Source: a virus
Virus record (IMG/VR): IMGVR_UViG_3300027985_001265
Location: 1-64,000 of that record
Strand: one strand, 5' to 3'
DNA: 64,000 nt
Below, in pieces: positions 1 through 57,246 of this stretch. Below the pieces are notes generated by a model. That model was given only the letters and a program-made list of their open reading frames with translations, was not told the origin of the DNA and did no database searches. Position 1 is the first letter of the stretch. The number at the start of each line of letters is the position of its first letter. The position numbers and the translations under genes were made by a program.

Positions 1-48
1 AAAAAAAAAAAAAAAAGGGACACTGCCGGCCAAAGCTAATGTCCCTTT
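1..48 (-). terminator. Rho-independent terminator (minus direction)
   Basis: A 9-bp stem (AAAGGGACA at 14-22 with TGTCCCTTT at 40-48) is followed, on the minus strand, by 16 T residues (A run at 1-16). This would stop leftward transcription. Plus-strand genes begin just after it. The A16 run is also the window edge, so an assembly artefact in its length is possible. Confidence 0.6.
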
Positions 49-6050: not shown

Positions 6051-6237
6051 AACCCGAATAACGTACCCCTGTGGGCATGTGGAAGAGAAGGCCACCAAAG
6101 TTGCTATTTACGGCTTATGTCATAATGATGCCAGGCCAATATTGATAGAAGTTTTTGGTAAATGTTCCTTTTATCAATACCGGCGTTTTAAGCAAGCCGT
6201 ACATCCTGTAAAGGGCCTTGTCATTGTTAATGCCTAA
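6037..6237 (+). CDS. Small hypothetical protein between terminase genes
   Basis: A 66-residue frame. I infer a TTG start at 6037, six bases after GAAGGGG, overlapping the previous gene by 14 nt. It reads LSKSKTRITYPCGHVEEKA and ends QAVHPVKGLVIVNA. It has a CGH and a second Cys-Asn-Asp segment but no full zinc motif. It fills the gap before the terminase gene and overlaps that gene's start, so it is probably translated. Function unknown. Confidence 0.5.
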   Translation: MSKSKTRITYPCGHVEEKATKVAIYGLCHNDARPILIEVFGKCSFYQYRRFKQAVHPVKGLVIVNA

Positions 6238-32700: not shown

Positions 32701-35700
32701 CTTTTGAAATTGAGCAGGCTGTAAAACACAGTAATGATGCTTTCGTGAAATTGCTTAAAGAGGGTAGTCTTGGTGAAGGTATTGCTGATGGGATTGCTAA
32801 GAACAGAGATAAAATCTTTGCAGATGAAAAATATAACAAAATCCCTGAATACCCTGGAGCCAAGAAAAAGATTGAAGTAGATACGAAAACAGCTATCGAA
32901 TACGTCAGCGATATGGTTACCTGGGTTAAGAATAAAACATCTGCAAATAAGAAGTTTCTCCTTGGTTTAAAAACCAACCCTGATCTTGGTATTGTGACTC
33001 ACATGAACCAGTACATGGACCCGACTACCGGGGGGTATAAGACTGGGATCACCCCTAAAGAGACTGTCAGCAATATTAAGATGTCCGATATTCTCAAGGA
33101 TGCTGTAGTTAAAACCAGCCAGCAGGTGTTTGACGTAGCCCCTGATGAGGTCACAGAAGAAGAGATTCTATCTGCTGTAACTGAAGAGACCCCTGAGATG
33201 ACTACTATCAATCCTGAATTCGATCCAGATAAAAAAGGTTTCCAGATTATCCGCATACGCCAGGATGGGGAATTTATTGAACACAGGGTCAGAGCATTAA
33301 CCTTAGATGAGTTTCCTGGTATCGAGTTGGCTGCAGAACGCACTTCAAAGAATGTTTGGACCTTCTATGAAGCAACTACCGGTTTAACAGCTTTTAAACA
33401 TAAGGGTAATCAAGAAAAAGGTATTGAGGCTTTTAAAAAAGCAGTGACCCTTGAGATGTTTCAAAAAGCTCTCAAAGATGTTGCTGAAAAACAAAAGACT
33501 CTGGGTAGTAGTCGGTTGTCAAACCTATCCTTAGACCCTGCAGACTATGCTCTGGAAAGTGAGATCAACCGGGAGACTATACTTGATACCTACGAGGCCA
33601 TTAAAAATAATGGGTCTAAATCTGACAATGTTAATCACGATTTCCAGTTGAAGCATATTCTTTCTTCTTTGGTTCAAAATGTTATTGAGCCTCTGGACCT
33701 ATTCATGAAATCCAGTACTACTGATCAGACTGAAGGTGCTTTTGATTATGAATCAGGAAGAAAAGACAGGGTGTTTATCAGCAATCATTCTGGTCTGTTG
33801 AATCTTGGAATCCAGATGTCTACAGGTGAGGTTTACACCCATGAGTTGGTGCATGCTGTTATCCATAAAGGTCTGGAGATGAATCGTCACCTCTATGATA
33901 AGGTTAACCGGTTATACGACGTGGCTTATAATAAATTGAAACAGACTTATGGTGACGAGGGTCTTCGTATATTTTTGAGTGATCCAAATAATATTACCAA
34001 CCAAGCAGAAATATCTCTAGCCCATGAACGTTTCAATTATCTTTTTCGTGATGCCGGCACACATGGCTCCAATACTCAGAACCAGTATACTGGAGTAACT
34101 TCCAATAAGATCAAGTCCAACCATCTTGATGAATTTATGGCCTTTGGTTTAACCAATGAGAATTTTAGCAACTTCCTCAAAGGTATTAGCTTGGGTCAGA
34201 CTGATTATGCAAAAAGCACCTGGTCGAATATTCGGGGAGCCAATATTCAAGAAACTCTCTTGAATATCTTTCAGATGATCATGGACTTTTTCAGAGGAAG
34301 GCTGACGGATATTAATCGTCGAGTAGCCTATCAAGAACTTGAGGCTTTGGCTCAACAACTATCAAATACTGAATCCAGATGGAAAAGCCAACGGTTTGAA
34401 GTAGTTCGTAAATTTGTTGGTTTAAGTGGGAAGCTTTCTGAGAAAGGTAACAGTCTGGTGAAGGCTACTTTTAAAAAAGTAGCACCTAAAGCTGAAACCT
34501 GGAAAGAGGGTTATGATATTCTCATGAAAGACCCCAGTAAAGGTGGTCAGATGCTTCGGGATCTTATCTATAAAGCCAGGGCTATGGACCAGGGGGTTGT
34601 TAAAACTACTGTACAGGAAGCACGGGGAGTTACTGAAAGACTGTCTGACTATTACCAGATGCTTACTCGTAAAAAAAGAATTCTTGATGCTTCCAAAGAG
34701 GCTGTTGCCCGTGCTTGGAGTTCTATGGCCAATGACTTTTTTACATTGGATCTAACCAAGGAGCAGAAGACAAATTTAACCAAAGCTGGATTAAAGGCCG
34801 ATGCTGGAATTCTGCTGGATGTTCATGGCTCAGATCATTTGCTTAAAATTTATTCTGACGAGTCTGTTAGAAACATGGAGATCCAAAAGGTTCTTGATAC
34901 CATAGAAGGTAAGCTTAACCAGATCCTGGAATCTGTGAATAAGAAAAAGCAAAGCACTGTTGTTGCTCAGTACCTGAATTATTATGATCGGGCAGCTATG
35001 GCTTTGGGTGATTTCATAATCCACTCTCAATTCCGAAAAGGTGAAGACGCTCCTTTGAATGCCCAGCTTATTGCTGAGTTGGCCGGTACCACTGAAATGG
35101 GAAATATGAGAGAGGTGGATGCCAAGAAAGTGGAACCCCTGATTGATCAATTGGCAAGCCTTTACGCCATTGGAAGCCTATCTGAAAACTCCCGAGCTGA
35201 ATTCGCTGACATATTGACTAATGATGCGGAGGGTGTGTCTAAGATGTTTCAGATGCAAAAAACTCTTAAAGAACAAGCCCGGGAAACTTTGTTTGCCGGC
35301 AGCGAACGTCTATTTATAAAAGGGTATGTCAAGACTGTTTTGAATCCTGAGATGTCTCTCGAATTTGGTACTCTGGCAGACGAAGCTGAGATGACCCGGT
35401 TGGGATATACTCGAAGCGAAAAACCTTTGCCTCGGGATGAAGCGGATGTTTATCGTAACCAGGATATTTATCTCTATACAGCCAGAAATGGTCGTATGAA
35501 TACTTTGCAGTCTGGATTGATGTCTTATACTCGGAATAAAGCCAAAGGCCAAGGAGGACGTGCTCTAGCTGCTCAGACAAGCAATTCCACTGAACAAGGC
35601 TATCTGAACATGGAACAGATTATCATAAACAAACACGCTGTTCGGGATCATATGTTCACTCAAAAACGAAATTCCCGGGCCAAGCTTTCCAATGTAATGG

Positions 35701-37142
35701 TTGCCAAAACAGATGCTCTAGGATTTTCCATTGATTACCGGTATATGATGTCTGAGGCAAGCAAGGATGCTTATTTAAGTCAGGTCAGTGATTTCGATAC
35801 TGTGTTTGGTTCTATGGCTGCTCAGATTCTTGATAAAGGTGTTACTCCCATTGTTAATGAGGAGTTGATTCATCGGTTAAAACAGACCTATGACGAAGAG
35901 TACCAAAATAACCCTGCTGCTTTTAAAGCCATTGGGCCTAACGTAGCTGACCCAGATATGGTAGAGCAATATTATTTAATCCCGGAGAAAACCCGGAAAG
36001 TAGTTGCGGATGTTTGGGGGCCTGAAAAGACCATGTATGTACCCAAGGATCTTATGACATTAGCTTTCGGTTACCGTAAATACTCAATCATTGATGCTTT
36101 TACCAAGAAGCCCTCTGAACGTGCCAGGTTGGAAAAAATGGTAGTTACCCTTTTTCAACATATTACCCGGGACATAACCGGAGAGTCCGGCCGAGCTATC
36201 AAGGCGGCTAATACTGCAGAGCGTATGGCTATAGAAATGACTCATTATGCCAAGGACAACATCATTGTAAAATCCTTGACAGTCACGCTCGGCAACTTTG
36301 GCTCTAACTTAATGTACTTGAGGATGCGGGGTGTACCCATCAGTACAACTCTGAAGCATGGGTGGGACGCTGTGAAATATGGTACTCGGTTTCAGGCTGA
36401 CAGTCAGAGAATGAATAAACTTTTGATAGAAAAAGATACCCGGGAAAAATCAAATACACCAGAAGATCAACGTCGATTAAAGGAAATCCAAAAAGAGTTG
36501 ATGCAACTCAAGGATGCTCTGGCCAGAAATCCTGTACTAGATTCCATAGACTCTGGGCTGATGCCCTCTCTGGTAGATGATGTTGATACCCAGGGACAGC
36601 AAAACTATTTTCCAGGCATGATCGAAAGCTATGTTGAGGATAAGACCAAAAATCTTCCTAAACCGGTTAAACAGTTCGGTAGAGTCGCTTTTTTGACCCA
36701 AGACACAGAAGTATACAAGGTGCTCAATAATGCTGTTAAAATGACCGATTTTGTGGGCCGGCACATTCTGTATAAGCACTATACAGAAAGCCTCGGAATG
36801 AGCCAAAAAGAAGCTGCTGCAAAGGCGATTGATGAGTTCGTGAACTTTGATATTGCTTCTCATCGGATCACTGAGTATTTGAATGAAATAGGCCTTCTTT
36901 GGTTTACCAAGTATGCCACCAGGATTCCTCGGATAGCAATTAAGGCTGTCATGGACCGACCTTTTGATTCAGCAATGTCCTATTTATTGTCTACCCATTT
37001 GGGTACAGATAATATCTTAGATTCAACTATCCCAAATCTTCCATATAAAACGGGTTTACCTCCTACTGCTGTAGCCACTTCAATGGACGATATTCTATCT
37101 GCCCAGGGAGCAGGCTGGATTTTGGGGTCAATTTTACCCTGA
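26778..37142 (+). CDS. Virion-encapsidated RNA polymerase (N4 gp50-like, 3454 aa)
   Basis: A giant protein ejected with DNA to transcribe early genes. Single-subunit RNA polymerase motifs are visible. A GR pair ends 'VFQAVGR' (R1417). Motif A is ERDGLANG (D1562). Motif B is RKLAKNLNVGAIYG, with R1683, K1687 and Y1695 spaced +4 and +8 as in T7 R627/K631/Y639. Motif C is NIHDAG (D1945). Length and motif positions closely parallel the roughly 3500-residue N4 vRNAP, whose polymerase domain is the middle third. Residues 1-400 are Gly/Ala-rich with possible membrane-active helices (MVGLGYGLGAGVGAIAES). An HExxH zincin-like motif, THELVHAVIH (H2355), lies in the C-terminal third. No cleavage into smaller frames is seen. 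Confidence 0.88.
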   Translation: MPSLEFSTLFDKKAATVQAATEDKKAQLGNTSSAAGYLISRIEQEQALAPLDLSNKEAPKIDLDPVPENSLEAMGRGGREAIQGMVGLGYGLGAGVGAIAESIAGEGGLSSGFKEAMVKKYIENEQDMAQYSRPEDSLTYSWEKAKDGDYGAMLSWATHGTGYVASQLATILAGSGVVAGGTRLIGKKMVGQVMSGLVEKEATRLAAGKTVTEAVLNKATANVTAKVGEHLGMAASGFGMEGGEILGDLAKQSTERGTPLTAGEIGQGLTATALAGAVEYMETLLSVSALKGKLGKFPGATEMDGIAGKLARGAITGGKTAAGEAVQEATQTGIERWGKGDDLTSEDAVREYIDAAGLGALGGGPASVGGVFTRSTKEQEEVDRKRAEKKEAQARVRPQTQPGFDQKVAEVVETGNTSQFTEAEKPENNPTTAMHVAQKQTQKEGATRTDKLKTRDDAVKVFQSLVQSEMETKAKVDALDEKIKTAATPEDKARYTEEQAQLIAKGEYLKTQREDVTPLMQSIVKATDDEIPGLVEDFKKSFEQEAPSGAVNEILRKVFGSNGGKAFFQDDSVDFNQIIKDHQDKLTPEDIGVLQKVANLQKSVKAVVDKTTKSMGQVNTDILDGGDGYIGLFQHKQGVVDALNNGDIQLAAERQNAFSQWAKERVVRANTFTGMYQAFKNNVEPSAAIKKSFGTINAKQVANGRKAYSIGPKTWSLAETMRLEAKALNDGVALTQAMFPSQTAEQTQSNGTVANVASPSTQVDTTNPGTQTSPDLEGRAGDAQSNPGGEQTSRQGTPAPKVEKQPRAKIAPTVQLPSHISTDTQQTLSEMGFVEEQIQEMKPAAANWHVSQKDKSLDELREAQKAVNPNTAKAALYKELIATKEQQEQKEDIATPPETKEPKIKQEKPSEELKKESDQTEDFPFANEPPIDDNYDYQLSQMVEQNDEVFSPVVEQEEPITKSERDSSRIYGPANQVAQDTSIDPSTLKTVEDYKKTNAVKAFTKVKGEANLFNGEVEVIDHLKEQHAEMQGEQKVALGKLISFMEKFSSTLDKLYQHKNTEWLFKDALSYFTVFNGETRSITHPTTKKVTQKAVRKLPENFKAAMALSAFNWLSTQAETEDLERTIKKILGLKASTIITNESMGLMDGLGNKGIYFSEVLGRDVIRHLQLSFSDQALENLEENLSRSTGMAILTNLQQMGYLKRQYVDSGKRKGLKPENSTFGLQGLANKLDGIYDGEITSFLLDGPQKGVTADDFFSLKTDKKGNVLGSVKELRQQYKPLKVFLDDQFEMTPKSLEVSFVKPELTGGQERLQKSSESATKEQTANKEKNEQTPYNVSNKMDKLLRRFGVDAMKLFAGYQSEEGRHVNSIISIKGKNRSIDRSFEQIQTWYEMAQNQKSKFLSKFFIRSVFQAVGRMRQVGLIRPQGDKIHRNFFNMSTTEVEIDPHNNEKHRQLFIEAVGQGLGIEASKYSSLEETLRLVDEKLATPVIQEGLKALKEVLDGNKKATPEQVQAVMAAIKSGGEDLHTLKVLEGYQTFLDNQPKEGKKGKPFKTDLYLERDGLANGVMMMLTQLRTAPITRVFLARLMSVGLGYRAEGNDFDHATYLDPYMAIARHWNTFLNERIEILQLRPRELKEWNRKLREEISPTPVEAQDRIRKIRAINRLLEGLDKPGDSIVEHKRKLAKNLNVGAIYGAEKNSTERGIATKIVDDVIPETLESIAALRKTDRAAADLLQKQLQEALGNLTQTEVWDPKTFKGNPLEWQLSKEAKKDIYAAVSVDYGTMLYDAMSLVYGDFREASKLLNPAIGLAAANYNAALQALIQQHVKEGKPLTRADVKAFKARLESILPRIKTPMGGFINLTDFTGSDVLEEDDFSTIEQTYYQVEGFPKIGRLMGKAVSVKELKAPGVKPIPSVIHMLDSMVANMLMGAVDPETFGILNIHDAGITNILQAAEMTNIQNKAMFENMRDYNLAFEIEQAVKHSNDAFVKLLKEGSLGEGIADGIAKNRDKIFADEKYNKIPEYPGAKKKIEVDTKTAIEYVSDMVTWVKNKTSANKKFLLGLKTNPDLGIVTHMNQYMDPTTGGYKTGITPKETVSNIKMSDILKDAVVKTSQQVFDVAPDEVTEEEILSAVTEETPEMTTINPEFDPDKKGFQIIRIRQDGEFIEHRVRALTLDEFPGIELAAERTSKNVWTFYEATTGLTAFKHKGNQEKGIEAFKKAVTLEMFQKALKDVAEKQKTLGSSRLSNLSLDPADYALESEINRETILDTYEAIKNNGSKSDNVNHDFQLKHILSSLVQNVIEPLDLFMKSSTTDQTEGAFDYESGRKDRVFISNHSGLLNLGIQMSTGEVYTHELVHAVIHKGLEMNRHLYDKVNRLYDVAYNKLKQTYGDEGLRIFLSDPNNITNQAEISLAHERFNYLFRDAGTHGSNTQNQYTGVTSNKIKSNHLDEFMAFGLTNENFSNFLKGISLGQTDYAKSTWSNIRGANIQETLLNIFQMIMDFFRGRLTDINRRVAYQELEALAQQLSNTESRWKSQRFEVVRKFVGLSGKLSEKGNSLVKATFKKVAPKAETWKEGYDILMKDPSKGGQMLRDLIYKARAMDQGVVKTTVQEARGVTERLSDYYQMLTRKKRILDASKEAVARAWSSMANDFFTLDLTKEQKTNLTKAGLKADAGILLDVHGSDHLLKIYSDESVRNMEIQKVLDTIEGKLNQILESVNKKKQSTVVAQYLNYYDRAAMALGDFIIHSQFRKGEDAPLNAQLIAELAGTTEMGNMREVDAKKVEPLIDQLASLYAIGSLSENSRAEFADILTNDAEGVSKMFQMQKTLKEQARETLFAGSERLFIKGYVKTVLNPEMSLEFGTLADEAEMTRLGYTRSEKPLPRDEADVYRNQDIYLYTARNGRMNTLQSGLMSYTRNKAKGQGGRALAAQTSNSTEQGYLNMEQIIINKHAVRDHMFTQKRNSRAKLSNVMVAKTDALGFSIDYRYMMSEASKDAYLSQVSDFDTVFGSMAAQILDKGVTPIVNEELIHRLKQTYDEEYQNNPAAFKAIGPNVADPDMVEQYYLIPEKTRKVVADVWGPEKTMYVPKDLMTLAFGYRKYSIIDAFTKKPSERARLEKMVVTLFQHITRDITGESGRAIKAANTAERMAIEMTHYAKDNIIVKSLTVTLGNFGSNLMYLRMRGVPISTTLKHGWDAVKYGTRFQADSQRMNKLLIEKDTREKSNTPEDQRRLKEIQKELMQLKDALARNPVLDSIDSGLMPSLVDDVDTQGQQNYFPGMIESYVEDKTKNLPKPVKQFGRVAFLTQDTEVYKVLNNAVKMTDFVGRHILYKHYTESLGMSQKEAAAKAIDEFVNFDIASHRITEYLNEIGLLWFTKYATRIPRIAIKAVMDRPFDSAMSYLLSTHLGTDNILDSTIPNLPYKTGLPPTAVATSMDDILSAQGAGWILGSILP

Positions 37143-38508: not shown

Positions 38509-39792
38509 TTAATTCATAAATAATTCTACGTCTTCAGGAAGTTTATCTTCGTGGCGTTTACTGAAACGTGGGAATTGGAATTTACCGGTATCAGGAAACC
38601 GTTGATCATACTTCACTTCGATAACACAAGGAAACTCCCAAGAGTCGGGATCCCGATCAGCATCTGTCAAACCACCAACGGTGCCTAGGTCAATCCGATT
38701 ACCCGTGGTGTCATATTGACAGATTTTGAGAGAACCAACCAGTCCTTGGAATCTTCCCTTACCTGGAGCGTAACCGTCTGCGATAACGTCTATGTCGCCC
38801 TGTGGTTTAACCTTAAAGGCGGCGCAACGATTTGGCTTACCATTCATCGTAATTTCTATACATTTGGTGGTATCCCAAAGAACAAACCCCTCAATCTGTT
38901 TTTTGTTCTCCCAAGCCAAACGTGTCGCTTCTTCCCCGGATTTTATTGGAACCTCTTTAGGGACGAATATTGATTTTCCTGCAGAGATGTCTGGGGATTT
39001 AAGATTCAGGCTATTGAGAATAACCTGATATGGAAATGATGCTGCTAAATTACCATCCAAGTACAGGATGGTTAGGAGTGCTGCTCGTACCCTGTATATT
39101 TCTTGAAGAGCCAGGGATTTTGGCACTTCATCTTTACAAACTCCGTCAGCAACGTCGGCCTTGCTGATTTGGGACATCAGCAGGAAAGCTGTCATGTGTG
39201 GGATCTGGAGCTGCGGGTCAATCATAAACTCAGTGTAAAACAAAGTCCCATTGGGGTATTCCTGAGACTTAACTTCTTCGACGATACTCGGGTATTTTAA
39301 CGTGTGGTCACACCACCTACGAGTGTATATCCGAATATCACCGTCTGTTCGGATCAGGATAAAATGCCCGATTCCGTTGTATTTCACGAAGAATTTCCCA
39401 TTCCCGGATTTGAGCAACTTGTTCATGGCCGGGATGGAAATAGTCTTCTTTGGTTTTGAAATACAGAAGGATTCAGGGATATTGTCCAGGTCCAGACCTT
39501 CTCCGGTTTGATCCAAGATGGAGAGGTCATCCAGGCTGGGTACCTCAAGATATCCCTCTTTAGTCTTGGTTTTGATCAGCCGGAGGTACTCTTCTTCGGC
39601 AACCTGCTCTGGGCTTTTCTCATTGGTTTTACCAATGTTGACCCCGGTACAGGTGTTGGCTGTGCTTTGAATATTATCACTACCAACATGTCCGTATTCC
39701 CGGGAAACTGTGTCTCCAGATAGCATAAGCTTTATGAAGACAGGTTGCCCTAGTTGAGTTTTTTTAACTAAAATTGTTTGTTTTTCTTCCAT
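38509..39792 (-). CDS. ATP-dependent DNA ligase with N-terminal WGR-like domain
   Basis: 427 residues from ATG 39792, with AAAGGAAAC in front; an in-frame upstream start at 39843 lacks a good site. Residues 1-85 (SGDTVSREYGHVGSDN, then EEEYLRLIKTKTKEGY) resemble a WGR domain. The nucleotidyl-transferase core has KYNGIG with the predicted adenylated Lys near 137, 'NGTLFYTEFM' (motif III), EGFVLW (IV) and AAFKVKPQ (V). An OB-like C-terminus (GSLKICQYD, CVIEVKYDQRFP) follows. The usual KxDG is KxNG here. It seals nicks in phage replication and repair. Confidence 0.85.
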   Translation of the reverse strand: MEEKQTILVKKTQLGQPVFIKLMLSGDTVSREYGHVGSDNIQSTANTCTGVNIGKTNEKSPEQVAEEEYLRLIKTKTKEGYLEVPSLDDLSILDQTGEGLDLDNIPESFCISKPKKTISIPAMNKLLKSGNGKFFVKYNGIGHFILIRTDGDIRIYTRRWCDHTLKYPSIVEEVKSQEYPNGTLFYTEFMIDPQLQIPHMTAFLLMSQISKADVADGVCKDEVPKSLALQEIYRVRAALLTILYLDGNLAASFPYQVILNSLNLKSPDISAGKSIFVPKEVPIKSGEEATRLAWENKKQIEGFVLWDTTKCIEITMNGKPNRCAAFKVKPQGDIDVIADGYAPGKGRFQGLVGSLKICQYDTTGNRIDLGTVGGLTDADRDPDSWEFPCVIEVKYDQRFPDTGKFQFPRFSKRHEDKLPEDVELFMN

Positions 39793-39849
39793 AAGTTTCC
39801 TTTTTGATGTTTTTGCTTTTACCAGAAATAATCTCCATAACAAGAAAAT

Positions 39850-40032: not shown

Positions 40033-40419
40033 ATGAATAAGAAACCTTGCGGTTGTGGTTTAAGGTTAATGCTGCGCATTTTTAATAAAAAATGGCGTAG
40101 CTGTATTATTTGTCACCTTGCCAGGAAAACTCTATATTTTACTGAGCTTAAAAAAATTATAGGAATTTCTCATAAAGTATTAACAGAAAACCTGCAAATA
40201 CTTAAAAAAGTTGGGATTGTAGAACGGACAGTTATTGACACTGTACCTATCCAGGTACAATACTCTTTAACTGATATGGGAAGATCTTTGATACCCATTA
40301 TACGAGAAAGTCATAAATGGGTAAATGAGTGGAGGGATACTCTAGAGATGCCCTCTGATAGAGCACCTCTATGTAAGTATCCAAAATCTAAACGTGAAAA
40401 GGCCTGGGAAACTTTCTAG
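40033..40419 (+). CDS. HxlR-family transcriptional regulator
   Basis: 128 residues. The N-terminal 'CGCGLRLMLRIFNKKWRSCI' and winged helix 'LYFTELKKIIGISHKVLTEN', 'LQILKKVGIVERTV' and 'QVQYSLTDMGRSLIPII' are classic for HxlR proteins; they usually start C-P with a conserved K-W. Binds DNA as a dimer. It is the only plus-strand gene in the early region, with its own upstream AT-rich region, and could regulate the divergent ligase gene. Its 3' end overlaps the convergent gene at 40388 by 32 nt. Looks host-derived; a lysogeny role is possible. Confidence 0.85.
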   Translation: MNKKPCGCGLRLMLRIFNKKWRSCIICHLARKTLYFTELKKIIGISHKVLTENLQILKKVGIVERTVIDTVPIQVQYSLTDMGRSLIPIIRESHKWVNEWRDTLEMPSDRAPLCKYPKSKREKAWETF

Positions 40420-40711: not shown

Positions 40712-41212
40712 TTATGCTGCCTCAAAATTTCTGTGTGCAATAGGGTATAGCCGAATGTTGCTTACAAACTGAGAAGGTATTTCAGAAGGTTTAATCCTAT
40801 CAGGATGATACTCCTTACAATTGTAGCAGGGTAAGCAGTCCGCCCTTGGATTATTTAACCAGGAGTTTTCAAGACACTGATCCCGGTAAATACAATCCCA
40901 GGTATCGGCTGCAGCTTGAATTTTCTCTAGTTTTAATTCATATTTTTTTCTGGAAGCTTTAGCTCTATCAAGTTCTTTTCGCCTGTTAATCTCTTTTTGG
41001 ACTTCCCTGATATGAACAGCTCGACAAGCGTCACAACGTTCTGTCTTCGCTTGATTTGGGGCAAGAGTCAGTATTGTTGGGCAATCAGCACACTTCTTCT
41101 GAATCAGTTTGACTCTACCTTTAGGATGTTCTGGACAATAATATGTCCCGTTTACTCTTAACTTTATAGTATCTTGTGTCAAATGGCAGCCGCAGGTCAT
41201 TTCATAAATCAT
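40712..41212 (-). CDS. Cysteine-rich zinc-ribbon protein B
   Basis: 166 residues with Cys pairs CGCH, YYCPEH, 'CADCPTI', 'CDACRAV' and 'CIYRDQC', then 'CLPCYNC'. The middle is a basic coiled coil (RKELDRAKASRKKYELKLEK). It is related in layout to the Cys-rich protein at 37937. It overlaps the stop-start junction with thyX by four bases, so the two are co-translated. Probably a nucleic acid-binding protein. Confidence 0.7.
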   Translation of the reverse strand: MIYEMTCGCHLTQDTIKLRVNGTYYCPEHPKGRVKLIQKKCADCPTILTLAPNQAKTERCDACRAVHIREVQKEINRRKELDRAKASRKKYELKLEKIQAAADTWDCIYRDQCLENSWLNNPRADCLPCYNCKEYHPDRIKPSEIPSQFVSNIRLYPIAHRNFEAA

Positions 41213-42168
41213 TTGAATACCTCTGGAAGTTCTTCCTGTAATTCAGCCAGGACCGGTTCCATTAGTATCCGAATCTGGGGGTGTGCAACTTTGCTTGTCC
41301 GAAGTCTTAGCATGTGTTTCCACTCGGATAAAGGGGCTGTGCAGACGACCTCTGTCTTGAGAGAATTGGGGAGGACGGATCTGGCAAATTGAGGTTGCCA
41401 GCCTTTATCCAGTAAGTCTTCATAGGAGTCTTTTGCATTTTTACATGCCCATAACCATTCAGAAGGTGCTATCATCCAGTCTTCATCTCTACGACCAAAA
41501 CGGCTTCTCCAAGCAGTTTCATAATCAGACCAGTCACCAACCCATATATTACCCACCCAAACTGGGAGAATGAATTCCATCCCTTTATTCCCATAGTTCA
41601 CATACCGGGTGCTTTCCTGGCTATATGCCCAGGGGCGATGCCTGACCATTTCATGGGTAACACCTCGATCTGTGATAAACCTGCAGGTCCGGGTAGCATG
41701 GATAAGTTTTTCTTCTGGATCAAGAGATATTTCAGGAAGAATAATGGCAATTTTTTTATCCACAATAAAGTAATCAGGGAAAATTTCAGGGTATGTTTTA
41801 ACAAAATAATCCTGGATGGCTTGCATACCAGTAGGATACTTTATAGCAGTATGTTTTAATACAAATTCTAACCAAGCCCTGAAATTTCCTGAAACGATAA
41901 AAACACCTTTCTTGTTGGAAAATCGAAGATACCCAGAATCAGAAGAGTCTTTCAAAAAACTCCAAGTTTCTTTACTGACTTGAAAAATTCTGTTTGCATG
42001 TTCCAGGACAGAATAATGTCCAGCCTTGGTGATCATTTGAACAAACCGATTGGCAGAGTCTTCTGTGATTTTGTCTTCGGACTTGTAGCAGGTCCGGCCA
42101 GCCAGCTCTATCAATTTTATTGGATCAGATTCCCGAAGGAACTGATGAGATTGTTCAATAACTTTCAT
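41209..42168 (-). CDS. thyX: Flavin-dependent thymidylate synthase ThyX
   Basis: 319 residues. Makes dTMP from dUMP using FAD, NADPH and methylene-tetrahydrofolate. The ThyX signature RHR(x7)S is present as RHRPWAYSQESTRY (about residues 176-189), with upstream 'SVLEHANRIFQVS' and downstream 'QFARSVLPNSLKTEVVCTAP' (Q-AR..LP substrate motif). Longer than bacterial ThyX but in the phage range. Overlaps both neighbours by four bases, in a small nucleotide-metabolism group with the NrdD-like zinc protein. Confidence 0.93.
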   Translation of the reverse strand: MKVIEQSHQFLRESDPIKLIELAGRTCYKSEDKITEDSANRFVQMITKAGHYSVLEHANRIFQVSKETWSFLKDSSDSGYLRFSNKKGVFIVSGNFRAWLEFVLKHTAIKYPTGMQAIQDYFVKTYPEIFPDYFIVDKKIAIILPEISLDPEEKLIHATRTCRFITDRGVTHEMVRHRPWAYSQESTRYVNYGNKGMEFILPVWVGNIWVGDWSDYETAWRSRFGRRDEDWMIAPSEWLWACKNAKDSYEDLLDKGWQPQFARSVLPNSLKTEVVCTAPLSEWKHMLRLRTSKVAHPQIRILMEPVLAELQEELPEVFK

Positions 42169-42488
42169 TTTGGTTCTCCATGTTTATAAACCTTCCGCAT
42201 TCTAAATTCCTCCCGTTTAGCTTCATTCCAGTTGCTGACAGGTCGAAGATAACCAACTACCCGGGAGTATACTTCGGTATGTTGACCAAAGTTTTTATCA
42301 TTCTCCCAGCAATCGGGGCATTTGAAATAGTATTCTTCATCCCGTTTACCGATGACCCCATCTTTAATTTCAATTTGGGTTGGTCCGGTACGTTCCAAAT
42401 GGATAGTGAAGTCTTCTCCACAATCCATACAGGTACAATTAACAGCAGCATACTGATGCTCGCCAATTTTTTCAGAAAGTTCTTTCAT
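42165..42488 (-). CDS. Stand-alone NrdD C-terminal-like zinc protein
   Basis: 107 residues from ATG 42488 (AAGGAAAACCAA in front). CTCMDCG and CPDCWEN make a zinc ribbon. The end 'VYSRVVGYLRPVSNWNEAKR' closely resembles the C-terminal tail of anaerobic ribonucleotide reductase NrdD, which also holds a four-Cys zinc site. The catalytic ten-strand barrel is absent, and no full NrdD is in the window. Co-translated with thyX. It may work with a host or elsewhere-encoded reductase. Confidence 0.65.
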   Translation of the reverse strand: MKELSEKIGEHQYAAVNCTCMDCGEDFTIHLERTGPTQIEIKDGVIGKRDEEYYFKCPDCWENDKNFGQHTEVYSRVVGYLRPVSNWNEAKREEFRMRKVYKHGEPK

Positions 42489-42589
42489 TTGGTTTTCCTT
42501 AATTAAAGTCAAAAGTTCTAAAGACCATTTTTATTGAATGATGACAAATCTGACGATAGGTATAAATTGAGATGAGAAAGAAAAATAGA

Positions 42590-42617
42590 AAAGGTTCTCA
42601 GGGAGTTGAGAACCTTT
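42590..42617 (-). terminator. Terminator after integrase gene
   Basis: A perfect 11-bp stem (AAAGGTTCTCA / TGAGAACCTTT, 6-nt loop) starts 11 nt past the integrase stop. On the minus strand it runs into TTCTATTTTTCTTTC. It separates integrase transcription from the thyX group. Confidence 0.85.
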
Positions 42618-42627
42618 ATTTAAAATA

Positions 42628-43797
42628 TTAAATTGTTTTCTTGAGTTGATCCAGGTAGTCGGCCCACCATTGCATCATCTTGGTTCTTTCAGGTAAATAC
42701 TCAGCATGGTTATATGCAGCCTTTACCTTATTTCGTTCTGCATGAGCAAGTTGCATTTCAACATAAGAGGTATTCCAGCCGTTTTCATTTAATAATGTGG
42801 AAGCCATAGCTCTAAAACCATGACCACACATTTCAACTTTTTCATACCCTAATCGACGTATTGCAGCCAAGACGGTATTTCCACTCATGGGTCGGGAATC
42901 TGTCATGATAGATGGGAAAAGGTATTTGGACCTATGTTCAGTATAAGGTCGAAGATCTTCTATGATTTGCAAAGCTTGAATAGATAACGGGACAATATGT
43001 GGCCGGCGCATCTTCATCTTCTCTGACGGTATTTTCCAGACAGAGTTAACGGTATCTATTTCCGACCATTCTGCTTGGCGTAATTCTTTGGGACGCACAA
43101 ATACCAAAGGTGCTAATTTTAAAGCACACAGGGTAATGAATTGTCCGGTGTACCCATCAATAGACCGGAGCAAAGCACCTACTTCTTTTGGGTCTGTGAT
43201 GGTAGCCATGTGATTAATTTTTGTTGGTTTTAACGTATCTTTTAGAGCAGCCGTGACATCGTATTGGGCTCGCTCTGTAATGACGGCATAACGAAAGATT
43301 TGGCCACATGTTTGCCGTAAACGATGGGCTGTTTCATGAGTCCCTCGTTCTTCGACTATCCGCAAAATATTTAAAATATCTAAGGGTCCAATAGCATCAC
43401 AGACTTTTGATCCAATGAAAGGGAAGGCGTGTGTCTCCAGACGGGCCAATGTTCTTTTTGCATGAGTAGGCTCCCACCCAGGTTCTTTGGTATTGTACCA
43501 CTCCCGGGCAACAGCTTCAAAAGTGTAACCGATGACGGTATGTTTTGTAGGCTTGGGGTCAATACCGTCAGCGAGCTGTAATTTAGCCTCTTGACATTTA
43601 GCCCTGGCAGCCTTTAATTTGACTGTTGGGTACACCCCAAAGGCTAGTGTTTTGCGTTTATTGTTAAAGCGGTAATCCATACGCCAGTATTTTTGTCCGG
43701 TGGGCATTACCAGAATGTATAGACCATTACCATCGGCAAGCTTGTATTGCCTGTCCTGGGCCTTAGCATTACGGATAGCAGTATCTGAGAGTTTCAT
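42628..43797 (-). CDS. int: P4-type tyrosine integrase
   Basis: 389 residues; ATG 43797 eight bases after AAGGAG. Site-specific recombinase for integration/excision. The N-terminal DUF4102-type arm-binding domain (LADGNGLYILVMPTGQKYWR) is followed by a SAM-like core-binding domain and a catalytic domain. The latter has R235 (VRPKELR), HxxR (H326-R329, GHGFRA), H352 (LAHAERN) and the nucleophile Y362 (AAYNHAEYL). All catalytic residues are present, so the enzyme should be active. Flanked by a terminator downstream and by TACCGT-type repeats upstream. No tRNA or att core was seen next to it. Confidence 0.95.
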   Translation of the reverse strand: MKLSDTAIRNAKAQDRQYKLADGNGLYILVMPTGQKYWRMDYRFNNKRKTLAFGVYPTVKLKAARAKCQEAKLQLADGIDPKPTKHTVIGYTFEAVAREWYNTKEPGWEPTHAKRTLARLETHAFPFIGSKVCDAIGPLDILNILRIVEERGTHETAHRLRQTCGQIFRYAVITERAQYDVTAALKDTLKPTKINHMATITDPKEVGALLRSIDGYTGQFITLCALKLAPLVFVRPKELRQAEWSEIDTVNSVWKIPSEKMKMRRPHIVPLSIQALQIIEDLRPYTEHRSKYLFPSIMTDSRPMSGNTVLAAIRRLGYEKVEMCGHGFRAMASTLLNENGWNTSYVEMQLAHAERNKVKAAYNHAEYLPERTKMMQWWADYLDQLKKTI

Positions 43798-43826
43798 GAC
43801 GGTATCTCCTTTGTAAAGTGGTTATG

Positions 43827-43848
43827 TACCGTCAGATATATCGTCAAG
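43827..43848 (+). repeat. TACCGT-type repeat 1 (candidate Int/AlpA arm site)
   Basis: TACCGTCA and, 6 nt on, TCGTCAAG. The 22-nt unit recurs at 44037-44058 with three differences. A reverse TACCGTCA also covers the integrase start (43797-43804). Position around int and alpA suggests arm-type integrase or excisionase sites. Confidence 0.5.
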
Positions 43849-43892
43849 ATACTGTTGCTGTCAACGGATTTTAGTAGACTTAGGTAGAAACT

Positions 43893-43927
43893 AAAAACCC
43901 CTGAGAGCCAGAATTCCCAAGGGTTTT
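43893..43927 (-). terminator. Terminator between alpA-like gene and int
   Basis: AAAAACCC (43893-43900) pairs with GGGTTTT (43921-43927); on the minus strand TTTTTAGTTTC follows. This separates the alpA-like transcript from the integrase gene. Confidence 0.6.
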
Positions 43928-44036
43928 AAAATAAAACTGGATGATATTAAATTACAGTGTGGTAGAGATTCTCACATCCATACTTTTTAAAAAAATCTTT
44001 TATTTTCAGTCTGTTGGTTTTTGAGAATAAGGCTTA

Positions 44037-44058
44037 TACCGTTAAATATACCGTCAAG
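44037..44058 (+). repeat. TACCGT-type repeat 2 (candidate Int/AlpA arm site)
   Basis: TACCGTTA and TACCGTCAAG in the same spacing as at 43827-43848. It lies directly past the stop of the AlpA-like gene, so the two copies flank the 188-nt int-alpA intergenic region. Confidence 0.5.
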
Positions 44059-44062
44059 CTGT

Positions 44063-44263
44063 TTATGCTGCGTTTTCTTTTTCATCACGTTCTTGGATTC
44101 GTTTTTCGATCCAGTCATTGATTTCACTTTCAACCCAGGCAACAGATCTTTGTCCTAACTTAACAGGCTGGGGAAATTGTTTCAAGGCCAGTAGTTGATA
44201 TACTTTAGCTCGGCATATCGAGGTACGGTCAACGACCTCTTTAATCTTCAGAAGTTTTTTCAT
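44063..44263 (-). CDS. AlpA-family regulator / excisionase
   Basis: 66 residues behind AAAGGAGAGTT. The MerR-like winged helix 'LLKIKEVVDRTSICRAKVYQ', 'FPQPVKLGQRSVAWVESEIN' and 'DWIEKRIQERD' is diagnostic of AlpA/Vis-type proteins. In P4-like elements these regulate the integrase and act as excision factors. It is encoded upstream of the P4-type integrase in the same direction, as in P4 and many genomic islands. Confidence 0.93.
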   Translation of the reverse strand: MKKLLKIKEVVDRTSICRAKVYQLLALKQFPQPVKLGQRSVAWVESEINDWIEKRIQERDEKENAA

Positions 44264-45342: not shown

Positions 45343-46128
45343 TTAAGCTGCTGCACCACCAAAAAGTGATGCACCACTGGCTGCCTGTTCAGGGGTGGTT
45401 GTACCCCCACCGAAAGTTCCACTGTTGCCCGGGCCGGCAGTAACATTGACCGCAGTTTTGGAGGTCTTGTCTTTGACCTGTCCGGTCCATTTTTCAGCCC
45501 ACTGGCCTTTAAATACAGGCTCGGTCATTTTGGCTTCAGCTTCGGTGACGGTTAGGCCAGAGGGATAATGGAAGAACTTGTCGATCTCATTCTCATTCCG
45601 GGTTTCTGTGGAATCCACATAATTACCAGTAGCGTCTTTGACCCGTTTGCTAACGGTCTGTTTGATGACACCGGCAAAGATCTTTTTACCCAGGAGTTCT
45701 GTAATCATGGGTACTTCGGTGGGAACTTCTTTTCTCTGGGAGAAGTCGTAGAGCATAATTGTCTTCACTTCTGATTTGACCTGGGCGATGTGTTTGCCGA
45801 GGGTCATCAGGCACAGATGGTCAGCCAGCTCAAATCCGGGCAGATATTTCTTGAGGGTCTTCTGCCCGGTCTTGGGATCTTTGGCCATGTAGAAATTCTG
45901 GCCACCTTTTGCTGTTGCAGAGGACAACCAGAGTTGTGCTTTGAGTTCCTTACCGTCTTCAGTCTCAAGGACAAGGTTGAGGGCTTTGGCACCGCCATCG
46001 GAGATGGAGCCGTAGGCCAGTTTAATATCAAAGGGGTAAATAGCAGAATCCAGAGTTCCATATCTGGAGCCGCCAAGTCTGTCGCCATCACTCTGGATGG
46101 ATATATCGGTTGTAAGGGTATCAAACAT
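45343..46128 (-). CDS. ssb: Single-stranded DNA-binding protein, N4 gp45-like
   Basis: 261 residues, close to the length of N4 gp45. Beta-rich core ('SAIYPFDIKLAYGSISDGGA', 'LNLVLETEDGKELKAQLWLS', 'HLCLMTLGKHIAQVKSEVKT') and a flexible Gly/Thr/Ala-rich C-terminus ending SLFGGAAA. In N4 the equivalent protein coats single strands and is needed for replication, recombination and late transcription. Position in the replication operon before a RecA-like ATPase agrees. The assignment is from overall pattern, not from a short diagnostic motif. Confidence 0.65.
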   Translation of the reverse strand: MFDTLTTDISIQSDGDRLGGSRYGTLDSAIYPFDIKLAYGSISDGGAKALNLVLETEDGKELKAQLWLSSATAKGGQNFYMAKDPKTGQKTLKKYLPGFELADHLCLMTLGKHIAQVKSEVKTIMLYDFSQRKEVPTEVPMITELLGKKIFAGVIKQTVSKRVKDATGNYVDSTETRNENEIDKFFHYPSGLTVTEAEAKMTEPVFKGQWAEKWTGQVKDKTSKTAVNVTAGPGNSGTFGGGTTTPEQAASGASLFGGAAA

Positions 46129-46177
46129 GAGATTTTTATCTCCTATTTTAAAATTAATTGCTGGGCATATCGCCCGG

Positions 46178-46357
46178 TTACCGAATACTGATTTTCCGGT
46201 ATTCTTTCATAAGGGCAGTCAGTTCAAGACTGTTTTTCCTGGCTCTGCGGGCACCGGCTTTATTGTCGTACTTTGCAGTGTTCTGCTTGAACTCAGCAAA
46301 TAAGGTGTCAATTTTGTCGGTCAGTTCAGTTACTGCTGTTGCATTAAAATCACTCAT
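46178..46357 (-). CDS. Small histone H1-like protein (59 aa)
   Basis: ATG 46357 behind AGAGG. It reads MSDFNATAVTELTDKIDTLF and then a Lys/Arg/Ala-rich helix ending ELTALMKEYRKISIR. 'RRARKNSLEL..LMKEYRKIS' matches the helical part of bacterial Hc1-like/histone H1-like proteins. Likely binds DNA in the replication region. Confidence in the family is moderate. Confidence 0.55.
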   Translation of the reverse strand: MSDFNATAVTELTDKIDTLFAEFKQNTAKYDNKAGARRARKNSLELTALMKEYRKISIR

Positions 46358-46388
46358 AATAAAATTACCTCTTTGTTTTTGGTTTAAT

Positions 46389-47132
46389 TTAAGCTGCTAC
46401 GGGTGTTCCGTAATATTCATGAAGCCGGTTCAGCAAGAGTTGTGCATCATTGTCGATGAAGGTCTCTTTGGTATCCCACATACCCATGCTGGCACGGATC
46501 CGTTCGTTAACTGTTTCTTTGGTGAGCTTGGTCTGATACACATGCTTGAAACCAAGCATCTCCTCTTCCGGGGTAATAACCAAGAGAGGGTTTTTATAGG
46601 GTTCCAGGTCGGTGATTGCCATACGGCGGGCTGAAACCACAGTTGAGAAATAGGCTTCAATCCCATTGGCCTGGAGAGCACCTTTAACCGGTACTTTTCT
46701 CTCCATGACCATAGCCGTTTTATTCAGGATGGCCTGGACATGAGCCAGGATAATGACGTTGCACTTGGACGGGGCCACATACTTCTGCATCAGGTTTTTA
46801 AAATATTGTTGGTACTGGGACCATCCGGCCATAGTATCTGCTGAAGGAAGAACGTGGATAGATTCAAACATGTCCATGAGGAATGTCAGAGTGTCAATAA
46901 TGATGGTGTGAAAATTCCCGGTTACGTCTGCATGGGCAAATCCTTCATAGACCTGATAGGGGTCTGTGATGGAGAATTGCCTGAATTTAGCCGGGAATGG
47001 ACATTTTTTATTTGACTCGCAGTTGAGGTACATGATCCCCTCGGGGTTTTTTAAATTCCGGAGAGACGCTGTTTTGCCCCCGGAGGATTCCCCTACGATA
47101 AGGACTAAATTGTCATTGGTAGGCGTTGCCAT
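46389..47132 (-). CDS. RecA-like NTPase (Sak4 type)
   Basis: 247 residues, ATG behind TAGGAGA. Walker A GESSGGKT (residues 14-21), Walker B 'FHTIIIDTLTFLMDM', then 'CNVIILAHVQAIL' (sensor-like) and 'GALQANGIEAYFSTVVSARR'. Sak4-type proteins are single-strand annealing or recombinase ATPases that act with the phage SSB, which is encoded two genes downstream here. Probably aids recombination-dependent replication or repair. Confidence 0.85.
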   Translation of the reverse strand: MATPTNDNLVLIVGESSGGKTASLRNLKNPEGIMYLNCESNKKCPFPAKFRQFSITDPYQVYEGFAHADVTGNFHTIIIDTLTFLMDMFESIHVLPSADTMAGWSQYQQYFKNLMQKYVAPSKCNVIILAHVQAILNKTAMVMERKVPVKGALQANGIEAYFSTVVSARRMAITDLEPYKNPLLVITPEEEMLGFKHVYQTKLTKETVNERIRASMGMWDTKETFIDNDAQLLLNRLHEYYGTPVAA

Positions 47133-47150
47133 TGGTTTATCTCCTATTTT

Positions 47151-49322
47151 TTAGGCAGCCTGTTTAGCTGCTCGTTTACCTATTGCGGTTGTGGCCGTGA
47201 CCAAGATGGTGGTATCAATCTCTTTTTCAGAGAGCTTGTCCGGCATACTGCTGTTGAGTCCCATGACTTTTTCCCGGATGTCCGGGTAACTGAAACCCAT
47301 ATCTACCAGGAGCATGGCGTAGCGTAGCAGCCGGTTGTTCCTATTGCCTTCAAATGATCCCTGTACGAACCATCTCTCCAGATTGGAGAGACTGGCAAAG
47401 TCCACCATCTGCTGTTTACGCTCATCATTTTTACGGGTCTTGGCGATAAACAGGCGGGCATCCAGGAGCTGATCTCCATGGTTATAGATATACTGGCCGG
47501 CATCGTTGGTGAGCCATTTGCGGCATCTGTCTATGGCAGCCGTATCTACCTCGAAAGGCAACCATTCGAAGATGTTCCGCATGAATGCCCGGTATTCTTC
47601 GGCGGTCATGGACATTTCATAATTCAAAGGCATGATCAGCCGGAATCTGTTATTTTCCGGGGTATGCCGTTTGGTGGTATAGGCCATGAACTTGTAATCT
47701 TTCAGGAGGCTCTGGACGATGTCCAGCTTGGCTCCCTTGTCGATATCCAGGACCACCATGTTGAATCCCGGGATCATGTGATCCTCATCCCGGTGTCCAT
47801 TGGTTGAACGGTGATTGATCCAATGATGATTCTTTAGTTGGGTCAGAACATGTAGTTTGTCGAAGGGGGCCAGGTCATTTTTATAGCCGTCAGAAATACT
47901 CTGGGAATGGGCCACCTTCAGTTTATCCAGGTTGGTTTCGGTCAAGGATGAGCCCTTAAAGAATTCGACACCTTCTTGCATATACTGTTTAACGACAATG
48001 TGATTCTTGTAGCCCCAGGATATAGCGTTGGTTACCATATCCCTTCTCAGGACTACCGAAGCTTTCTTATAATACGGCAGTTTTTCGATGAGATCGGACT
48101 GAGTCAGTTCATTGGGAACCTGGGCCAGATACCGGGCCATCTTTGCATACGGGGGATCCTGGTGGAACATATTATAAAAGCTCTCACCTGAGTCCTCGGC
48201 CAGCTTAATAGCGGCATACAGGTTCTCCATACTGATCTCAGCGTGACCATCCACATAGGCGAAGGCGCCGGCCAGCTTCAATACTTTGAAGTACCGATGT
48301 TCCATCTCTGCCCGGACTGTTTCTTCGATACCTCTGTACGGGGCAGCCCGCCTTTTACAATCCCGATGATATTCAAAGAGTTCAATGCCCACATCTTTGG
48401 TGAGAATGATCTCCCGGCCGAAGTTGGTGACATTGGCCAGTTTGCTAAAATAGACTGCAGCATCTTTAAAAACATCATTGGTGTCCTTGCTGCTTTGCAG
48501 TGCGTACATTTCAGCACCGGTCATATCCTCGTCTTCCACGAAGTCATCCATGTAAAAGGTCCAGCATCTGCGGGCCAGTCCTGTTTCTTCAAGTTCGTTG
48601 AAGTTCTCTTCAACTTTGCTTCCATCAAAGACTTTGCATGGGGTGCCGATGGCCAGTAAGTTTGCCGGGGTGGTTCCGTCTATTTCTTCAATACGGGTAT
48701 TCTCTTTGGTATTTTTGGTCAGAGCTTCTTTGGCTTCACCAATATCAAAGAGTTCCAGGTAGGCAGATAGAGCTTCGTTGGAAGCCAGGAGATTCATGCC
48801 TATTTCGTCAATCTCCAGATTCAAAGCACCGGCATTCGCAATGAGCAGTTTCTGTCTTAACTGCTGGATGGCCGGAGCAGTAGCTTTCTGGAATGAGAAT
48901 CTCATTTTACCGAGGTTTTCATATTCACGAAGTACACCAGCTTTCATATCGTCGGGGTCTTCCCCGGCTATGTACGCTCTTCGTACAGCGATCTTTGCTA
49001 TGTGTTCATCTGCCACAATTGGCAGTACCTGATCCAAGAAAATCTTCTTGAAATGCTTCAAGACGCCTTTCTCGATCATGTTTATTGAATAGTTTTTGCC
49101 AACACCCGAGGGTACCAGATTGATCAGGAAGGCATTGATGGGGAGTGTTCCCCGGACTTCTGTTTTGATCTTGGCTCTCATGGTGGATGCGGCCTTGCAA
49201 AAGAAGTATCCAAGCAATGCTCGATACATCCCCATGGGGCCTGCAGGATTTTTCTTTTTCATAGCCCCAGCTATTTTCTCGGTAAATGGGTGATATTCCA
49301 TCTCCGAATAATCTTTTTTCAT
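47151..49322 (-). CDS. Helicase-primase, P-loop ATPase with C-terminal AEP-like primase
   Basis: 723 residues from ATG 49322 (eight bases after GAGAGG; ATG 49328 is too close). The N-terminal half is a DUF3987-like ATPase: VPSGVGKNYS at about residues 70-79, 'NLEIDEIGMNLLASNEALSA' as the Walker B region. The C-terminal third carries an archaeo-eukaryotic primase-like signature: 'NMVVLDIDKG' (DxD) followed by 'YTTKRHTPENNRFRLIMPL' and 'DRCRKWLTNDAGQYIYNH'. This would unwind DNA and make primers for the family A polymerase at 53822. Confidence 0.8.
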   Translation of the reverse strand: MKKDYSEMEYHPFTEKIAGAMKKKNPAGPMGMYRALLGYFFCKAASTMRAKIKTEVRGTLPINAFLINLVPSGVGKNYSINMIEKGVLKHFKKIFLDQVLPIVADEHIAKIAVRRAYIAGEDPDDMKAGVLREYENLGKMRFSFQKATAPAIQQLRQKLLIANAGALNLEIDEIGMNLLASNEALSAYLELFDIGEAKEALTKNTKENTRIEEIDGTTPANLLAIGTPCKVFDGSKVEENFNELEETGLARRCWTFYMDDFVEDEDMTGAEMYALQSSKDTNDVFKDAAVYFSKLANVTNFGREIILTKDVGIELFEYHRDCKRRAAPYRGIEETVRAEMEHRYFKVLKLAGAFAYVDGHAEISMENLYAAIKLAEDSGESFYNMFHQDPPYAKMARYLAQVPNELTQSDLIEKLPYYKKASVVLRRDMVTNAISWGYKNHIVVKQYMQEGVEFFKGSSLTETNLDKLKVAHSQSISDGYKNDLAPFDKLHVLTQLKNHHWINHRSTNGHRDEDHMIPGFNMVVLDIDKGAKLDIVQSLLKDYKFMAYTTKRHTPENNRFRLIMPLNYEMSMTAEEYRAFMRNIFEWLPFEVDTAAIDRCRKWLTNDAGQYIYNHGDQLLDARLFIAKTRKNDERKQQMVDFASLSNLERWFVQGSFEGNRNNRLLRYAMLLVDMGFSYPDIREKVMGLNSSMPDKLSEKEIDTTILVTATTAIGKRAAKQAA

Positions 49323-49378
49323 AATCATATCCTCTCAAATTATTTTTGTTTTTTCCCAATAAAGCCCCGGAGGGGCTA

Positions 49379-53437: not shown

Positions 53438-53689
53438 TCATCCTAATGCCTCCATGAACGGAATTTTCTTTACCTTGGGAAGTTTCTTAATGTAAACCTC
53501 CAAGCGGAATGCTTCACTCTTTTTGAACCCGGACTTCCAGGCTATCAATGATACTGGACATCTGGCCCGGGTGTACTTAGCTCCTTTGCCTGCATTATGT
53601 TGATGGACCCTGCGCTGCAGATCATTTGTTACTCCACAATAGAGAGATCCGTCTGAACACCGTAGCAGGTATACAGACCACTTATTCAT
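53438..53689 (-). CDS. GIY-YIG nuclease-domain protein (YhbQ-like)
   Basis: 83 residues from ATG 53689. 'WSVYLLRCSDGSLYCGVTND' and 'QRRVHQHNAGKGAKYTRARC' are the GIY-YIG and helix motifs, with the modified VYLLRC...YCGVTND form typical of small UvrC-like/YhbQ proteins. It is not the classical intron-homing type. Overlaps the preceding small gene by eight bases. Next to the structured non-coding region; whether it acts on that region is unknown. Confidence 0.85.
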   Translation of the reverse strand: MNKWSVYLLRCSDGSLYCGVTNDLQRRVHQHNAGKGAKYTRARCPVSLIAWKSGFKKSEAFRLEVYIKKLPKVKKIPFMEALG

Positions 53690-53825
53690 TTTGTTGTCTC
53701 TCAATAAAAGCCAAAGCAGCATCAATTTCTTTCAGTTTTTCTGTATCTTCAGGGAAGTCTTCTCCTTCAAACCAACCTCTATAATCCATAAGAGCTTCAT
53801 GGATTACATTTAGATGTTCTTTCAT
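53682..53825 (-). CDS. Small acidic hypothetical protein (47 aa)
   Basis: The ATG at 53825 overlaps the DNA polymerase stop (ATGA), behind AAAGGAGGC. It reads MKEHLNVIHEALMDYRGWFE, then EGEDFPEDTEKLKEIDAALAF and QQNE-ending tail. Helical, acidic. Coupled between polymerase and the GIY-YIG gene. Function unknown. Confidence 0.6.
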   Translation of the reverse strand: MKEHLNVIHEALMDYRGWFEGEDFPEDTEKLKEIDAALAFIERQQNE

Positions 53826-56451: not shown

Positions 56452-57222
56452 TTAAGCTGCTATTTTTTTGAAACAGTAATCAGGGATACGTCCGGCGGAT
56501 ATTTCGTTTTTTACAAAAGCAAGTCCGTCATCCAGCAGGTAAAGACCATTACCATAAGCAAGAAAGTATTGTTTTCCTAAATTTGTAGGTTCTTTTCTGG
56601 TTCTGCATTTTTCATAAGGCTTAGGTACGACTTTCAAGTACCCTTTTTTTACAAGGTGGTTTGTTGTTACAGTCGGTCTTAACCCTAAAAGAGAAAATTG
56701 CCGTTGTACTGAATTTGTTTCCATATTTTTAGGGCCTTTTGTTACTGACACCTTTGCGCAGGCTTTAGCCTGGTTTGGGAATGATAAGATACATTTCGTT
56801 TCTTCAGGCTGTTTCTTTGTTTCCTGGACGGGGCAGCCTTCTATTGAAGCAGCAAGTAGCCGAAGAGCTTTAGGGATGTTTGAAGGATCAATCAATTCAG
56901 CCCGGGCCTTCATCAATTCAAGCTCCATTTCATTGAAGGCTTTGATGAAGTCCACTTTGAAGCCCAAAGCTTTTTCCCCGGTAAAACCAAAAACAAGGAC
57001 AGCAAAGGCATCCCGGTCCATGTCATACATGGGTCTTTCTTTTCCCTGTTTATCCAGGTAGTTAGTCTCCTGAAAGTTCAGGGGGCCTCTCCCAATGGAG
57101 TTCAGAGTATCCTGAATGGTCTCAATGGATTGAAGAACATTGTCATGACGTTTATCAAATACATCCGACACTTTCAGGGAATTGGTCACAGGTTTACCAG
57201 CTTTTTCAGTTACAAGTTTCAT
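56452..57222 (-). CDS. Rha-family phage regulatory protein
   Basis: 256 residues from ATG 57222 (TTG 57240 also possible). Residues 1-100 match the Rha domain: 'NSLKVSDVFDKRHDNVLQSI', 'NFQETNYLDKQGKERPMYDM', 'DRDAFAVLVFGFTGEKALGF', 'KVDFIKAFNEMELELMK'. The C-terminal half is different and includes 'KKGYLKVVPKPYEKCRTRKE' and 'NGLYLLDDGLAFV', which resembles antirepressor C-terminal domains. Rha proteins regulate phage development in temperate phages. Confidence 0.85.
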   Translation of the reverse strand: MKLVTEKAGKPVTNSLKVSDVFDKRHDNVLQSIETIQDTLNSIGRGPLNFQETNYLDKQGKERPMYDMDRDAFAVLVFGFTGEKALGFKVDFIKAFNEMELELMKARAELIDPSNIPKALRLLAASIEGCPVQETKKQPEETKCILSFPNQAKACAKVSVTKGPKNMETNSVQRQFSLLGLRPTVTTNHLVKKGYLKVVPKPYEKCRTRKEPTNLGKQYFLAYGNGLYLLDDGLAFVKNEISAGRIPDYCFKKIAA

Positions 57223-57246
57223 TTTATATTTTCCTCTCAAAATACA

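Follow-up and report, generated by a model that had tools for sequence, protein, structure and literature searches.

N4-like phages (Schitoviridae) have mostly been taken as strictly lytic, an assumption on which phage therapy uses them and from which the initial annotation of this DNA also started. That premise is now dated, since temperate N4-like viruses were already reported in 2023 (mSystems, PMC10654107), in a survey that found lysogeny genes in 54 N4-like genomes and listed 40 proviruses. These viruses, like the phage analysed here, combine N4 hallmark genes with a phage integrase, and their chromosomal proviruses occur mainly in Moraxella. Enterobacteria phage N4 and the other classical isolates of Schitoviridae share with our phage the virion RNA polymerase (vRNAP), RNAP1/2, TerL, portal, MCP, DNAP, primase and the MoxR-vWA pair; unlike it, the isolates surveyed have no integrase (PMC10654107).

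An N4-like genome

The stretch under analysis, henceforth the window, comprises bases 1-64000 of the 73,758-bp IMG/VR record IMGVR_UViG_3300027985_001265, which is an N4-like phage (Schitoviridae) and thus a virus of bacteria. Its size fits the family, whose genomes of ~60-80 kb have two opposed gene blocks: The plus strand of the window carries the late genes for TerL, portal, MCP and vRNAP, and the minus strand the early and replication genes for SSB-like and Sak4-like proteins, primase, exonuclease, DNAP, helicase and vWA protein. MoxR, RNAP2 and RNAP1 lie in the last 10 kb of the record, beyond the window. The large vRNAP typical of the family is present (26778-37142, plus strand; 3454 aa; phrog_2206, 1109 bits), as is the set of TerL, portal, MCP, DNAP, primase and RNAP1/2, all of N4 type. 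The terminase large subunit TerL, similar to N4 gp68 (6218-7840, plus strand), was identified by TerL comparison and alignment and is ~48-64% identical to that of typical Schitoviridae phages. The primase matches phrog_2135 with 884 bits and belongs, with the SSB-like and Sak4-like genes, to an N4 replication block (45343-49328, minus strand) recognized from PHROG matches and from comparison with N4-like contigs; searches of genomes and viral contigs with the single primase sequence gave no matches, and alignments were used as queries instead.

Direct terminal repeats, another trait of Schitoviridae, are absent from the record, which begins with 16 A (window 1-16) and finishes with 26 A (73733-73758). 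Given this combination, the ends are possibly assembly breaks in a complete genome, perhaps one assembled as a circle and opened at a homopolymer. No tRNA or tmRNA genes were found in the record. Among its other proteins, an ATP-dependent ligase-like protein (38509-39843) reads KYNG where the ligase of an Alteromonas provirus has KFDG, which may mean a change in the usual KxDG motif (by eye, unaligned). Two possible homing endonucleases were also seen, a GIY-YIG-like protein recognized by eye (53438-53725) and a NUMOD1-containing protein with a weak Pfam match (positions 12453-12956 of L002, our handle for the part of the record beyond the window).

The AlpA-integrase module and its putative attachment site

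The integrase gene (42628-43797, minus strand) encodes a protein of 389 aa with the domain series of P4-type tyrosine integrases, namely Arm-DNA-bind_3 (6.5e-26), Phage_int_M (4.2e-33) and Phage_integrase (PF00589, 6.3e-26), and matches phrog_1 integrase at 2.9e-65. In the alignment its R-K-H-R-H-Y catalytic set is complete (R235, K262, H326, R329, H352 and Y362); hence the gene is intact and, judging from these residues, its product should be active. The adjacent gene (44063-44263, minus strand) encodes a 66-aa member of the AlpA family of excisionases and regulators (PF05930, 2.3e-20; phrog_2790 excisionase, 3.7e-13), which probably has a role in excision. The initial annotation had reported an integrase with all catalytic residues, an AlpA-type regulator beside it and N4-type late and replication genes alongside; all of this was borne out, with the coordinates of both genes exact. 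A tblastn search with the integrase retrieved 413 phage records, all below 60% identity (41.7% for phage P4), and the top two ranks in a search of viral contigs with the integrase alignment, among the best 80 loci, went to the related prophage L317 (54%) and to the N4-like fragment L003 (53%).

The surroundings of the pair suggest an accessory stretch, since GC3 lies at 0.34-0.39 in int, alpA and thyX versus 0.47-0.56 in the replication genes. Next to the module lie an NRDD-like zinc-ribbon protein (42165-42512, minus strand; PF13597, 7e-13) and ThyX (41209-42168, minus strand; PF02511), which also follows ssb in L003 and in four other N4-like contigs (L220, L225, L247 and L258). A terminator-like hairpin is predicted 3' of int (42590-42617, minus strand). 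A scan for sigma-70 promoters around int gave no excess over shuffled sequences, and no Rfam match near int exceeded the threshold.

The interval between alpA and int contains two short repeats that probably constitute arm-type integrase sites: an int-proximal copy, TGACGATATATCTGACGGTA (43827-43848, minus strand; two mismatches to the consensus), and a distal one, TGACGGTATATTTAACGGTA (44037-44058, minus strand; one mismatch). They are the only copies within four mismatches of the consensus in 64 kb, the next-best sequence having five, and random sequence yields at most one match within five mismatches; this count needs to be qualified, for the consensus was drawn partly from the window's own copies and the figures show only how prominent these are within the window. 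L003 has counterparts of both repeats at both places, the distal one reading TAACGGTATTTTAAACAGTA, and the int-proximal repeat recurs at the same place upstream of int in L003 and in the related prophages L317, L319 and L327. In these three prophages, the 3' end of a tRNA or tmRNA gene is followed by, usually, a hairpin, then by the repeats and by int. Alignment with those 3' ends, which represent attL, weakly predicts an attP core, GAATCTCTACCACACTG, at 43955-43971 (minus strand), in which no tRNA end is recognizable. A terminator-like hairpin with a stem of 13 pairs (43894-43927, minus strand) separates this predicted core from int, and L317 and L327 have a hairpin in the corresponding position. 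Paired arm sites beside an att core derived from a tRNA or tmRNA gene characterize P4-type systems; our phage has arm-like repeats and a core of predicted position.

IMG/VR contains no exact copy of the predicted core of 17 bases. A 20-base, tRNA-style version of it, searched for attB in 398 Pseudomonadota genomes, found only matches with two mismatches, in eight genomes versus ~6 for the reversed control, which is near chance. With the predicted core as query, neither IMG/VR nor these 398 genomes yielded a host, an attB or an integrated copy of this phage.

Integrated relatives and the distribution of integrases

Integrated copies with attL and attR were instead found in other N4-like lineages, as the initial annotation had proposed to check by searching bacterial genomes. 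A search of 84,980 species genomes with the TerL alignment retrieved 27 N4-like loci, four of which have att repeats at the 3' end of a tRNA gene. The complete-looking provirus of Alteromonas sp. BMJM2 (22699-95407, 72.7 kb) is bounded by a 30-bp repeat of tRNA-Leu(GAG) and carries at one of its ends genes for a DUF1233 excisionase and an integrase; beyond it, our own reading of the translated open reading frames recognizes host secG and triosephosphate isomerase genes. In a Burkholderiaceae MAG, the element (166-76480, 76.3 kb) is flanked by a 50-bp repeat of tRNA-Cys, beyond which we read host murI in the same way. The provirus of Xenophilus (76426-119365, 42.9 kb; 46-bp repeat of tRNA-Cys) is shortened and lacks part of DNAP as well as the primase block, and that of Dyella (50249-120383, 70.1 kb) has a repeat of tRNA-Leu(GAG) as short as 16 bp, in one assembly. 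Two further candidates were set aside. On the chromosome of a Dehalococcoidia MAG (CP070729.1; locus L106, G017:C1:238298-240585) only an N4-type TerL and its upstream neighbour occur within 100 kb, and this pair is an assembly artefact or a remnant. In Moraxella macacae the N4-like genes lie on an 866-kb contig; a tyrosine integrase was not seen next to them, and the single tRNA tested gave no att repeat.

Is the integrase a fixed property of these phages? The answer is no: Among 28 near-complete N4-like viral contigs (60 kb or longer), PF00589 exceeds the family cut-off in 8, with a weaker match in two more, and the carriers are scattered over the TerL tree. On this tree, a quick one of 45 rows without bootstrap, the integrase label requires 11 parsimony changes versus a mean of 12.5 after shuffling, at least four of which are imposed by branches with strong support; integrase-free status was assigned to seven isolates, following the 2023 survey (PMC10654107), and to five bacterial contigs. 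Given such scatter, integrases are not fixed in the N4-like group, and their gain and loss recur. The nearest neighbours of our phage in the tree (L021, 80%; L022 and L023, 72%) are fragments of 6-28 kb without the integrase region.

The placement of the module varies too. The window has the pair downstream of ssb, adjacent to the NRDD-like gene and thyX; in L003, AlpA (45%) and integrase stand upstream of the exonuclease, after which come primase, Sak4, SSB and ThyX. Five other N4-like contigs (G041, G045, G049, G050 and G066) carry an integrase between DNAP and exonuclease, and only two of these match the window's integrase by tblastn (G045, 33%; G066, 35%), which indicates that different integrase types were acquired. 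Another N4-like contig from the sample that yielded L003, L258 (IMGVR_UViG_3300028549_000633), has, besides ThyX, a tyrosine recombinase in an open frame of 316 aa. Among N4-like phages, integrases thus come and go, differing in type and in genomic position, and integrated copies occupy tRNA genes.

Some irregularities of TerL itself were encountered in this survey. The gene is split in two in the N4-like contigs G089:C1 and G098:C1, at the contig ends in the former, probably by circular permutation of the contig, and in adjacent pieces in the latter. In G033:C129 (25116-27698) and G035:C35 (4091-6688) it is interrupted by ~1 kb within one long open frame, in the manner of an intein.

A probable temperate lifestyle and its regulation

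In functional terms, these findings raise a question: What does an integrase module do in a phage that brings its own RNA polymerase into the cell? The explanation that we consider probable is that the phage is temperate, or was so until recently, and that its AlpA-Int module works through an attP between alpA and int. The polymerase delivered on infection would serve the lytic programme; as an alternative route, the P4-type integrase would bind the paired TGACGGTA arm sites flanking attP and insert the genome into a host site, which by analogy with the relatives may be the 3' end of a tRNA or tmRNA gene, with AlpA acting either in excision or by activating int. For N4-like phages, the pair would then represent a small module that is gained, lost and inserted at varying positions. 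The initial annotation had likewise suggested a temperate relative of N4, and this stands as the best reading in view of the intact attP-like module, the similar pair of L003 and the tRNA-att proviruses of other lineages, even if the phage's own attB or integrated copy did not emerge from the searches; lysogeny itself may be presumed for this phage.

The scatter of integrases over the TerL tree, the different position of the pair in the window and in L003, the low GC3 of the block and the lack of a CI or S24 type repressor would also agree with a passenger, a pair derived for instance from a P4-type satellite or island that no longer serves lysogeny in an otherwise lytic phage. We regard this as rather unlikely, because an intact pair with conserved arm-like repeats recurs in the N4-like L003, N4-like proviruses with att repeats exist, and the stretch contains just the two module genes and no other satellite genes. 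That an assembly error joined a prophage fragment to an N4-like contig is highly improbable: L003 is likewise N4-like around its AlpA-Int pair, the block in the window sits between the neighbour of ssb and ThyX, whose gene lies after ssb in several N4-like contigs, and base composition is continuous. Hence the pair looks like a genuine part of an N4-like genome. Tyrosine recombinases in other systems can resolve multimers or invert segments, and the enzyme could serve such a function instead of integration; its arm-binding N-terminal domain and the AlpA partner are typical of integrating elements, its closest relatives adjoin tRNA or tmRNA ends and no long inverted repeats that could serve as targets were detected around the gene, so that we give this option even less credence than a chimeric assembly.

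If the phage is indeed temperate, how is it kept silent as a provirus, given that it injects its own RNA polymerase? This question is testable. The initial annotation had counted a Rha-family protein and an HxlR regulator as further signs of lysogeny. Both genes are present, the accessory Rha beside DNAP in the early operon (56452-57240, minus strand; PF09669, 4.5e-29) and HxlR, a candidate switch protein, at 40033-40419 (plus strand; PF01638, 3.1e-24). The N4-like genomes and proviruses used for comparison contain no match to either; the two are thus no signature of lysogeny, and we dropped them as weak markers. Searches for repressors of CI or LexA type, usual in temperate phages without being essential, were negative: neither HTH_3 nor Peptidase_S24 matched anything in the record, and Pfam scans of 19 further proteins revealed no repressor. 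A repressor of another type may be present, HxlR being a candidate. HTH_3 occurs in none of 11 integrase-bearing and one of 15 integrase-free N4-like records, and Peptidase_S24 in none of the 26. A speculative solution, to which we assign a low probability, is that integrating N4-like phages need no classical repressor: Since their early genes would be read by a polymerase that arrives only in the virion, an integrated genome might be silent by default, and the choice between lysis and lysogeny might be set by the delivered polymerase and the dosage of Int and AlpA. The absence of HTH_3 and S24 from all 11 integrase-bearing records agrees with this idea. A search for repeated promoter hairpins of N4 type found no shared motif.

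Doubts about strictly lytic families are not confined to N4 relatives. Temperate features have been reported also for LUZ100 (PMC10134795), a T7-like phage of a family regarded as strictly lytic; unlike our phage, it belongs to the Autographiviridae and has a single T7-type RNA polymerase and no virion RNA polymerase. The closest parallel for the module itself lies in P4/CP4-57-type systems, which share the Arm-DNA-bind_3 integrase with AlpA, the paired short repeats upstream of int, the relatives at tRNA or tmRNA ends and the aforementioned identity with P4 Int. Here, however, the module is carried not by a satellite or island but by a 74-kb N4-like phage with a virion RNA polymerase, and alpA is on the other side of the predicted attP. 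With respect to the other integrase-bearing N4-like contigs that we mapped, in which the gene occupies the gap between DNAP and exonuclease, the distinctive feature is a P4-type integrase with AlpA beside ssb and ThyX. The temperate habit of N4-like phages is not new in itself; to this known phenomenon, the present phage appears to add a lineage, a type of module and a genomic position.
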